Assembly: GCA_017857705.1 (NCBI GenBank)
Contig: JAFMCP010000005.1
Coordinates: forward strand, 1-47,896
Reading direction: 5' to 3'
DNA from: Candidatus Nanopelagicales bacterium
GTDB taxonomy: Bacteria; Actinomycetota; Actinomycetes; S36-B12
Length of the DNA: 47,896 nucleotides
Shown one piece after another: positions 1-5,797 of this stretch. The notes beneath the pieces were generated by a model. It had not been told where the DNA came from. It ran no database searches and saw nothing but the letters and a program-made list of their open reading frames with translations. Position numbers and translations under genes: made by a program. Positions within the stretch are counted from its first letter, which is position 1. Each line of letters starts with the position of its first letter.

Positions 1-1340
1 ACCCAATTAATGTTCTGACCAGCGTTTGTATCGGCTGCGTTGGGGGATTCCAAAACTAACACTCGGCCAACCTTGTACCTACCTGATGGCGGGGCCGAGA
101 CATTGGCTGACTGAATTCCTGGCACCAAATTGATGTTGTAGGTGTATGTGACACCCGAGTATCCATTGGCTCCTGGTGAGACGGCCTTCATGGTGCAGTT
201 CCCGGAGCCCGAGTTCACGGCAAGGGTGAGTCCGGAGACCTGACAGGGACCTGTTTCACTCAGAGTGACAGGAGCGCCTGAAAGTGTACTTGCGACAAAG
301 GTGAAGTTGGATCCATTGCCCATGTTGTAGCTGCCACCATTTGACCAGTTCCCCCAGCCTGGTTGGACGAGAGTAATGACATCCGTTGATGTCGGGGCGT
401 TCACTGTTACAACATCTGTGGTGGAACCTGATCCACCGTTATTTGTCGTGTAGCTCGCGCCAAGTGTGACCTTGCCGGCGGCTGTGGGCTTCCATGAAAA
501 AGTTGCCTGCCCATTAACCAATGGAATTGAAGGACTGATCCAAGCACCGTTGACATTGAAACCAACGGATCCTTGGACACTTGAGGGGTAAACCGTTGCA
601 ACTAGGGTAACGGGTGCGCCAACACTCAAATTTGGAGGAGCTGTGAGAGAAATTGTATTACCCGAGGGTGTTGCGATTACGGCATCTTGAACGGAAGTGG
701 ACGCCGTTGCTTGACTTCCCGCTGCTGGGACATAGGTGGCAATGAAGAAGAATGTGCCTGCAGTTTTTGGTGTCCATCGATAGTAGGCGAAGGATTGCCC
801 AGCAGCTGGTCCTGCAGTGAGGTTCATCAGAACGTATTGAGCACCATTGGCATCTGTCAAACGGACTTGACCTGCAGGGGTGTATTGACTTCCACCACTA
901 CTTGTAACGTTCACATTAATAGTTGTGGATTGCCCAATTGTTGCGGTATTTGGTGCACTGACGACCGTGGTGGTCGCAACTGCACCGACAATAGTTAATG
1001 GAACTGAGTTTGATACGAATCCTTGGGAGTCGACATTCCACACGGAGAGCGAAAGAGTTGCAGCGGTCGAGGGTGTTGTAAAACTGAAGTTAACACTGGA
1101 ATCCCCAAGCCCTGTCGTAACTGTGGACCACACCTGTCCCGTTTGATCTTCGAGTTGCAATTGTCCTGCTGGAGGAGAGGAAAATGTGAAGGTGACTGTT
1201 TGAGAGATATTCGCCGAAGCAGGTCCGCTGAGTGTCCCGTCGGCGTGCGCTGCAGGGCTTGCAATTGCAATCGCTCCCGTCACCAGAGTCAGGCTGGCCA
1301 ACACACCAAAGGTGCGGCGCAGTCGCTGGGAAATGTGCAT
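1..1340 (-). CDS. Secreted Ig-like repeat surface protein, C-terminus cut by window edge
   Basis: Manual minus-strand translation from ATG at 1340 is open to the window edge (446 codons): MHISQRLRRTFGVLASLTLVTGAIAIASPAAHA|DGTLSGPASANISQTVTFTF..., a Sec signal peptide with AHA cleavage site followed by Thr/Ser/Gly-rich Ig-like beta repeats. SD-like AAGGAGC lies upstream. Missing from the ORF track because no stop lies within the window. Confidence 0.85.
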   Translation of the reverse strand, partial: MHISQRLRRTFGVLASLTLVTGAIAIASPAAHADGTLSGPASANISQTVTFTFSSPPAGQLQLEDQTGQVWSTVTTGLGDSSVNFSFTTPSTAATLSLSVWNVDSQGFVSNSVPLTIVGAVATTTVVSAPNTATIGQSTTINVNVTSSGGSQYTPAGQVRLTDANGAQYVLMNLTAGPAAGQSFAYYRWTPKTAGTFFFIATYVPAAGSQATASTSVQDAVIATPSGNTISLTAPPNLSVGAPVTLVATVYPSSVQGSVGFNVNGAWISPSIPLVNGQATFSWKPTAAGKVTLGASYTTNNGGSGSTTDVVTVNAPTSTDVITLVQPGWGNWSNGGSYNMGNGSNFTFVASTLSGAPVTLSETGPCQVSGLTLAVNSGSGNCTMKAVSPGANGYSGVTYTYNINLVPGIQSANVSAPPSGRYKVGRVLVLESPNAADTNAGQNINW

Positions 1341-3637: not shown

Positions 3638-4141
3638 ATGAGTCCGTCATGGGACCGGATCTACACGCCACACAGGTTGGAGTATTTGCGTGGCGGTAAT
3701 AACCCAGATGTCTGCCCGTTCTGTGTTGCGCCAGATCTCGACGACAATGAAGAATTGGATCTGGTCGCTCACCGTGGCGAAGTAGCATATGTAGTTCTCA
3801 ATCTTTACCCGTACAACGCAGGACATCTATTGATTTGTCCGTATCGACATGTGGCGGACTACACGGAGTTAACTGATGCAGAGCGCAATGAAATCGCGGT
3901 GCTCACACAGGAAGCCATGGAAACCTTACGTGTGATTTCAGGTGCACAGGGTTTTAACCTTGGGATGAATCAGGGTTCAATTTCGGGAGCGGGGATTGCC
4001 GGTCACCTTCACCAACATGTCGTTCCCCGTTGGGGAGGTGACGCGAACTTTATGCCGATTATTGGTGAAACAAAAGTGCTTCCACAGCTACTTACTCAAA
4101 CGCGTGATTTATTGCTAGAGGGTTGGACTTCGCGGAACTAA
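3638..4141 (+). CDS. HIT-domain protein (Ap4A phosphorylase/hydrolase-like)
   Basis: HIT triad HLHQHVVPRW and CPFC zinc-like motif. Downstream of thrS as in mycobacteria. ATG at 3638 starts in-frame inside the longer track ORF. Confidence 0.92.
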   Translation: MSPSWDRIYTPHRLEYLRGGNNPDVCPFCVAPDLDDNEELDLVAHRGEVAYVVLNLYPYNAGHLLICPYRHVADYTELTDAERNEIAVLTQEAMETLRVISGAQGFNLGMNQGSISGAGIAGHLHQHVVPRWGGDANFMPIIGETKVLPQLLTQTRDLLLEGWTSRN

Positions 4142-5156
4142 CGGAACTGCCTGCGGGAATCTTGCAGTTCGCTGCGATTCGCACGATTTCACCGGCATAA
4201 GTTGTTGACTTAGCCTGACCTGTGATTGAGTGAATTTGGGTAATGTGTATTTCATTGCTGTCGGCAAAGTACGTGCCAATTAGGAGTTCACCTTGCCAAA
4301 CACGCAGGTATCCATCTCCGAGTGAAGAGGCTAGGAGTTCTCCATTGGGCATATGTGCCGGCGTCCACGGTTCGGGATCAAGGTCACACGCGAAATTTGC
4401 CAGTTCACTAACTCCTATGGAGCCAGCTATAGCGAAAACTGGGATAATTTCTCGTCGAGTGGTTGCACTAATCAGTTGATCGCGTAATTGATCGACGGAT
4501 TCAAATCCTTGGTCAATAACTGAAAGGATTAGTTCCTCATCTGTGCTGGTGACAACCACAGCTTTGGTCAGTGCATCAATGTGTGATTCGATCAGGTCGT
4601 AGTGGGCTTGCTCCAGTTCATGTGCCTCAGGTGCGCCATGAGGTCTGGGAACCCTAATTTCCAGTGAAACTAGGTCAAGAATTCCGCCTACCTCAGGTTG
4701 ATCAAATGATTCTGAATCAGAGAGGACTGGCAAAGTAATAGCAACAGCATGGTGGCGCTGATCCATCACTCGTGAAATGACTGCCAAAGATTCATCAAAG
4801 TTTGCCCTCGGAGAATCAAGCCCGGTTACAGCAACCATGAGCGGACGGAATTGAGCAACCTCCTGGGCGCGTTGAATTGATTCTCCATCAAGGCCTTGGG
4901 AACTGTCGACCACCAGCAAGGCTATGTCTGCACCCCAACCCAAATACGAGCCGAGTTGGGGTGGATCAAAGGCTTCGGGCATTGCGTCAAAGGCTGTGAG
5001 AATGACGCTGACACCAAAAGTGATTGTTGGGTCAGCTTCATTGTCCACAGGTAAATTTAAAGGACTAAATCTTTGGTATTCATTGATCTGATGGGCAACG
5101 GCTTTGGCCAGAGTGGAATCGCTCGCTAGCACTGCGATTGATGCATTGATTGGCAC
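4092..5156 (-). CDS. Degenerate EF-G-like (EF-G2-type) protein: pseudo-G domain plus domain II, lacking domains III-V
   Basis: 354 aa, GTG start. Alignable by eye to actinobacterial EF-G-like proteins (VAVTGLDSPRANFDESLAVISR vs VVVTKLDhxRADFDxxLA; TDEELILSVIDQGFESVDQLRDQLISATTRREIIPVFAIAGSIGVSEL vs EDExLMDRYLxGExIDxxxLIxDLExAVxRGxFxPVxPV; domain II-like DGYLRVWQGELL...TTYAGEIVRIA). P-loop, DxxG and NKxD are not intact. Confidence 0.75.
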   Translation of the reverse strand: MPINASIAVLASDSTLAKAVAHQINEYQRFSPLNLPVDNEADPTITFGVSVILTAFDAMPEAFDPPQLGSYLGWGADIALLVVDSSQGLDGESIQRAQEVAQFRPLMVAVTGLDSPRANFDESLAVISRVMDQRHHAVAITLPVLSDSESFDQPEVGGILDLVSLEIRVPRPHGAPEAHELEQAHYDLIESHIDALTKAVVVTSTDEELILSVIDQGFESVDQLRDQLISATTRREIIPVFAIAGSIGVSELANFACDLDPEPWTPAHMPNGELLASSLGDGYLRVWQGELLIGTYFADSNEIHITQIHSITGQAKSTTYAGEIVRIAANCKIPAGSSVSSAKSNPLAINHAFE

Positions 5157-5162
5157 GGACGG

Positions 5163-5168
5163 ACGGTA
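5163..5168 (-). promoter_or_regulatory. Putative -10 (TACCGT) for the EF-G-like gene, leaderless spacing
   Basis: Minus strand TACCGT-CCGTCC-GTG: 6 nt between hexamer and start codon. Confidence 0.5.
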
Positions 5169-5179: not shown

Positions 5180-5797
5180 ATGTTGAACAATCCCAAAGCA
5201 CGCCAAGCGGTGAGTGGGCTTCTCAATCCGCCTGCAAAACTGCTTTTGCGCCTTCACGTTTCACCCGATGCTGTCACACTGGTAGGAACGCTCGGAGCAG
5301 TGTTGTGCGCAGTGCTGTTCATTGCACAAGGAAGTTTTGTATTAGGCGTTTTGGGAGTGATCCTTTTTGCAGTGGCTGATCTACTTGATGGAACCATGGC
5401 CCGAATGAAGGGTACGAGTGGCCCGTGGGGGAACTTCTTGGACGCTTCATTGGATCGAGTCGCGGACGGTGCCATCTTTGGATCAGTCGCCTTTTGGGCC
5501 GCAAGCTCCGATCAAATGTGGCTTGTGGTGGGAACTTTGATCGCACTGGTCGCTGGGCAGGTCACGAGTTACACAAAAGCTCGGGCTGAAGCCGTGGGAG
5601 CTGAAGCGAATGTGGGACTGGTGGAAAGGGCCGAGCGACTTATTGCGATTCTTGCAGCCCTGTTCCTTGCTGGACTTGGAGTGTCGTGGGTCTTGGACAT
5701 TGTTGTGTGGGCTTTAGCAGTTCTTGGGTTACTTACTGTTGTTCAGCGGGTTATTCACGTGCGCAAGCAACTCAAGCCGCGCACTGAAAATCTGTAG
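5180..5797 (+). CDS. pgsA: CDP-alcohol phosphatidyltransferase (phosphatidylinositol phosphate synthase-like)
   Basis: CDP-alcohol phosphatidyltransferase signature DGTMARMKGTSGPWGNFLDASLDRVADG; synteny with the actinobacterial PIM cluster. ATG at 5180 preferred over TTG at 5150. Confidence 0.9.
   Translation: MLNNPKARQAVSGLLNPPAKLLLRLHVSPDAVTLVGTLGAVLCAVLFIAQGSFVLGVLGVILFAVADLLDGTMARMKGTSGPWGNFLDASLDRVADGAIFGSVAFWAASSDQMWLVVGTLIALVAGQVTSYTKARAEAVGAEANVGLVERAERLIAILAALFLAGLGVSWVLDIVVWALAVLGLLTVVQRVIHVRKQLKPRTENL

Follow-up and report, generated by a model that had tools for sequence, protein, structure and literature searches.

A shortened EF-G2 descendant without GTP-binding motifs between the HIT and pgsA genes of Nanopelagicales actinobacteria

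The gene between the HIT-family gene and pgsA in the window (the whole stretch of DNA analyzed, 47,896 nucleotides from a Candidatus Nanopelagicales bacterium) is derived from an EF-G2 gene that lost half or more of its length together with its GTP motifs, and its body seems to have been kept for another job. The descent, the loss of the GTP motifs and domains III–V, and ongoing purifying selection are supported by the analyses described below. For the whole explanation, in which this still selected descendant of EF-G2 would act as a nucleotide-free binding module at a translation-factor site or on a translation-factor partner, the balance of probability leans slightly in favor. The core reading of an earlier note, made from the sequence alone, that the product is a selected non-GTPase from EF-G2 came through the fold, ortholog, dN/dS, and single-copy checks with support.

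Identity, predicted fold, and GTP-binding motifs

The 354-residue ORF was found on the minus strand exactly where it had been placed earlier, with a GTG start (Table 1). Its stop codon falls 50 bp inside the HIT gene, counted from the 3' end of the latter. Neither strand holds a rival ORF of at least 100 aa in the stretch from HIT to pgsA. A profile search matched residues 75–264 to NCBIfam NF009377 (EF-G2) with an E of 2.8e-13, at a score of 49 bits that does not reach the curated cut-off of 890, and S. aureus EF-G was matched with an E of 1.6e-4. When the profile of the genus was compared by hhalign with one built from ten full-length EF-G2 proteins of the same order, residues 44–349 were aligned to the G domain and domain II (E=1.6e-26). 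The similarity to EF-G2 is far above chance. Weak WD40-like matches, which were located in the strands of domain II, were not significant and were rejected, and no match to plasmid, phage, or defence proteins, including the PHROGs and PADLOC models, was obtained.

The AlphaFold model, for which 11 aligned orthologs from the genus were the input, had a pLDDT of 76.5 and a pTM of 0.79, and every one of its best 50 Foldseek PDB matches was an EF-G or EF-G2-type factor, these matches including crystallized EF-G fragments of approximately residues 1–405 (E=2e-20; TM of up to 0.72 for the query and 0.68 for the target). The protein is predicted by this model to be the G domain of EF-G with its G' insert, followed by a shortened domain II, and the alignments indicated that it terminates where domain II ends, with domains III, IV, and V absent. 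Derivation from an EF-G2-like factor, as suggested by the earlier note, is thus a point on which NF009377, hhalign, and the predicted fold agree, and the comparison with EF-G by AlphaFold and Foldseek that it had called for returned the G and II fold. As for its description of the product as the G domain plus the start of domain II, the G domain and the lack of domains III–V stood, but domain II proved to be whole, though shortened.

The P-loop, switch I, G3, and G4 were lost in 10 of the 10 aligned members of the genus. The neighboring full-length EF-G2 proteins have VGPxGSGKT at the P-loop and DTPGYADF at G3, together with the G4 forms given in Table 1. The remnants that had been read as eroded motifs (IAVLASDSTLAKAVAHQI, LTAFDAMPEAFD, and TGLD) were found again in the alignment, and this erosion extends through the genus. 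Among the positions where full-length EF-G2 reaches at least 85% conservation, the survival in short forms was 0–28% at the P-loop, switch I, and G3, except for 35% at the G3 of one genome (G055), and was approximately 20–70% across the stretch that runs from beta-4 to G5 and takes in G4, the helix after it (DFDExxAxxxRVF), and G'. The retained region is also the portion of the G domain with no role in holding the phosphates, and hence its retention may reflect folding alone. From these motif losses, we infer that the short EF-G2 protein probably acts without GTP binding.

Table 1. Features of the HIT–pgsA region of the window.
Feature	Position	Strand	Description	Basis
EF-G2-derived ORF (putative pseudo-GTPase)	4092..5156	(-)	354 aa, GTG start	
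HIT-family gene	3638..4141	(+)	convergent to the short EF-G2 ORF, 50 bp overlap at the ORF end	
pgsA	5180..5797	(+)	divergent; 23 bp between its start codon and the GTG of the short EF-G2 ORF	
beta-1, P-loop, alpha-1 remnant	5079..5147	(-)	residues 4–26 IAVLASDSTLAKAV; G1 lost	alignment; AlphaFold secondary structure
G3/switch II position	4965..5000	(-)	residues 53–64 LTAFDAMPEAFD; DTPG lost	alignment
G4 position	4815..4826	(-)	residues 111–114 TGLD; mostly TKLD or TNLD in the order's full-length EF-G2	alignment
Helix after G4	4761..4808	(-)	residues 117–132 RANFDESLAVISRVMD; among the best-kept pieces of the short lineages	
G' subdomain region	4455..4760	(-)	approximately residues 133–234; bL12-contact glutamates not kept	
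Shortened domain II	4107..4349	(-)	approximately residues 270–350; domains III–V absent	
TAnnnT -10-like element TACCGT	5163..5168	(-)	-12 to -7 of the GTG, inside ATGCTACCGTC	

Descent at the HIT–pgsA locus and purifying selection

Each of the 12 genomes sampled from the window's genus carries the short EF-G2 gene, which lies between HIT and pgsA and antisense to both, as had been described for the window (the contig of G008 stops before pgsA). The named relatives of the window's genome are MAGs. In sister genera of the family and order, the same slot is filled in the same orientation by full-length EF-G2 (approximately 700–800 aa), and EF-G2 was found beside pgsA also in other families of the class. 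Because this slot holds full-length EF-G2 in the sister genera, the conclusion that the short gene arose in place from these actinobacteria's EF-G2 gene is well supported. The statement in the earlier note that no standard actinobacterial gene was known at this place has to be withdrawn, as EF-G2 is its usual resident. The two surveys it had proposed, for orthologs and for an intact EF-G2 paralog, gave an occurrence that reaches well beyond the genus and no second or intact EF-G2 elsewhere in the window's genome (94% complete), which carries a canonical EF-G.

The dN/dS of the short EF-G2 gene in genus pairs was 0.14–0.28 by NG86 and 0.16–0.38 by YN00, being approximately two to three times higher than that of the neighboring genes (0.04–0.16 by NG86), and it changed little when the HIT-overlapping part was excluded. 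Furthermore, the nonsynonymous fraction of codon changes in each of the eight genus pairs tested was lower than in any of 200 neutral simulations, and no frame-broken copy was present among the 12 genomes of the genus; an apparent frameshift in G001 was a run of N in the assembly and no mutation. The stretch ATGCTACCGTC upstream of the GTG, which contains a TAnnnT -10-like element, was invariant at a fixed spacing in 12 of the 12 genomes. A TAnnnT at -12 to -7 is the layout of leaderless actinobacterial genes, and the short EF-G2 gene may likewise be expressed in a leaderless manner.

Sequence evolution thus supports the view that the gene is still under selection as a protein, as had been supposed against a decaying pseudogene. 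The truncation, the motif loss, the evolution faster than that of the neighbors, and the lack of the gene at the locus in some related genera would be in line with a slowly decaying pseudogene; however, the dN/dS of 0.14–0.28, with neutral simulations excluded, the intact frames, and the conserved upstream element refute the plain form of this reading, and we regard slow decay as highly improbable.

A rather unlikely alternative, in our estimation, is that the gene is selected for a role outside translation, with the G and II fold as a mere scaffold, for example, for protein binding or for the regulation of lipid genes. Such a role might be suggested by the loss in the genus of the nucleotide site and of the glutamates known to contact bL12 and by the fixed position of the gene beside pgsA, the two start codons being 23 bp apart in nine genomes of the genus. 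However, the adjacency to pgsA was inherited from full-length EF-G2 and hence gives no evidence for a lipid role, and two genomes (G007 and G010) have a displaced pgsA start, with the TAnnnT element still beside the short EF-G2 gene. In addition, the profile and fold searches revealed no added domain, DNA-binding or otherwise.

Short forms in other lineages and the path of reduction

Short forms at the HIT–pgsA slot were also found in other genera of the window's order, with lengths of 352 aa in g3, 335–344 aa in g16, 347 aa in g29, 261 and 419 aa in g11, 228–248 aa in g8, approximately 190 aa in g6, and 365 aa in g26. Full-length EF-G2 is at the slot in g2, g5, g7, g24, g23, and others, and no EF-G2-type gene was seen there in g10, g25, and most of f3. 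Because several genera are without the gene at the locus, it is dispensable over long times.

Small EF-G2-derived proteins of 193–248 aa were also identified in family f31, which belongs to a different order and has genomes of 1.2–2.2 Mb, many of them closed. Among the matches listed, at least 26 sampled f31 genomes had open frames of 196–248 aa, and the frames of nearly all other families were EF-G2-sized. The HIT–pgsA position was confirmed in nine f31 genomes, and the proteins between HIT and pgsA at L149–L157 of this family were 193–201 aa long. The f31 proteins aligned to full-length EF-G2 with an E of 4.9e-22, and the predicted model (pLDDT 84.7), which folds like the G domain of EF-G, matched EF-G, including M. 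smegmatis EF-G2. The G' subdomain of the f31 proteins is shortened. Upstream of the f31 starts, TAGGCT was conserved in the seven compared, at the same spacing as in the window's genus. The dN/dS was 0.05–0.15 in f31 pairs, 0.07 in g6, and 0.07 in one g16 pair, which was saturated; in the f31 pair G228/G192, the changes were too few for neutrality to be excluded. By these values, the other short lineages are likewise under purifying selection. As a separate observation, the short forms of g1 and g16 (A1, A4) have in common Trp residues not seen in full-length EF-G2, namely, RVW or RMW in place of RVF in domain II and a W-x-P in the linker, which could come from either common ancestry or parallel repacking.

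Two proteins apparently stand midway between full-length EF-G2 and the short form that lacks the motifs. That of G014 (g4; L043 8101–9480) is 459 aa long, retains the P-loop, G3, and G4 intact, and ends directly past domain II. That of G212 (g26; L147 1279–2376) has 365 aa with the P-loop K replaced by R and G3 lost. G046, of the same genus as G212, has a full-length EF-G2. These single MAGs suggest an order of reduction in which truncation came first and motif loss second. The tree of neighboring genes intersperses short forms with full-length ones, an arrangement that speaks for several reductions. The EF-G2 gene tree placed all short forms together (85/97), a grouping that carries a long-branch warning. 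In AU tests, holding g7 and g11 together fitted better than the free tree (p 0.63), the grouping of the short and full-length g26 forms was not rejected (0.39), and that of g1, g3, and g5 was mildly rejected (0.033). Taken together, the number of independent reductions is likely to be two or more. The wider proposal, that EF-G2 was repeatedly converted in place in genome-reduced aquatic actinobacteria into nucleotide-free pseudo-GTPases of approximately 190–420 aa acting on ribosomes or translation partners, is tentative, and we would sooner doubt than accept it in full.

Possible function and relation to known factors

At its own locus, the EF-G2 gene lost domains III–V and the residues that bind and hydrolyze GTP. 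What it kept is the shortened domain II and a G-domain scaffold that extends from beta-4 to G5 and includes G4, the helix behind it, and G'. A role as a translocase is hardly possible because domain IV and the GTP switch are missing. From these features, we favor a protein that binds the ribosome or a translation partner without nucleotide and that may fill part of the translation-factor site or hold a former partner of EF-G2. As a final step, which is a guess, this binding might tune translation or protect ribosomes in slow-growing cells.

Because G' is the subdomain of EF-G that contacts bL12 (PMC8446442, PMC3150367), the bL12 stalk is the obvious candidate partner. It may be possible that G' and the helix after G4 bind bL12 as a decoy, competing with translation factors or recruiting them, and it would agree with this that the stretch shared by the short lineages runs from G4 through G' and that some f31 copies retain part of the acidic positions. 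In M. tuberculosis EF-G1, bL12 is contacted by the glutamates E221, E225, and E228, which are mostly conserved in its EF-G2 (PMC8446442). However, these contact positions are K, N, T, and other non-acidic residues in most of the window's genus, reading LTK..TSTDE in the window against LIE..TESEDE in the full-length EF-G2 of the order, and the G' helix of the 354-aa protein is LTKAVVVTST against LIEGVITESE, so that the acidic positions are not kept. Binding of bL12 via the known glutamates is thus not supported in this genus, and with G' also shortened in f31, the stalk version is rated lower, as improbable.

The direct ancestor of the short protein, with a shared locus and fold, is EF-G2, or EFG II (NF009377; M. 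smegmatis, PDB 9k0z; T. thermophilus, 1wdt). The 354-aa protein has, like EF-G2, the G domain with the G' insert and domain II, and is, unlike it, without domains III–V, the P-loop, switch I, G3, and G4. Among eukaryotic proteins, Ski7/HBS1L3 is a relative of translational GTPases that no longer hydrolyzes GTP and serves as an adaptor. It belongs to another branch of the superfamily (eRF3/Hbs1 type) and has the exosome as its partner; the likeness to short EF-G2 lies in a GTPase relative having turned non-hydrolyzing, and the branch and the partner differ. The EF-G2 of Bacteroides thetaiotaomicron (FusA2) works without GTP hydrolysis. It is an EF-G paralog induced under carbon limitation (PDB 8dmf; PMC6989115) and, unlike the 354-aa protein, a full, untruncated five-domain protein of another lineage. 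A role under carbon limitation as in Bacteroides would, only by analogy, fit slow-growing aquatic bacteria.

If the G–G' part, sometimes with domain II, is kept by selection, part of the EF-G2 function may need neither the GTP switch nor the translocation domains; alternatively, a new function may have been built on the remains of EF-G2. The homologues at one locus (full length, G and II with motifs, G and II without motifs, and G only) represent a natural deletion series for finding the key surface. To our knowledge, no pseudo-GTPase derived from bacterial EF-G has been described. A narrow literature search, limited to open papers, for pseudoGTPase together with translational GTPase gave nothing relevant, and no open paper on both Nanopelagicales and elongation factor G turned up. 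Elsewhere in the window, at 1–1340 (-), lies the start of a repeat-rich, secreted-looking protein with a signal-peptide-like beginning and, by eye, Ig/FN3-like strands, the frame of which runs off the contig end.
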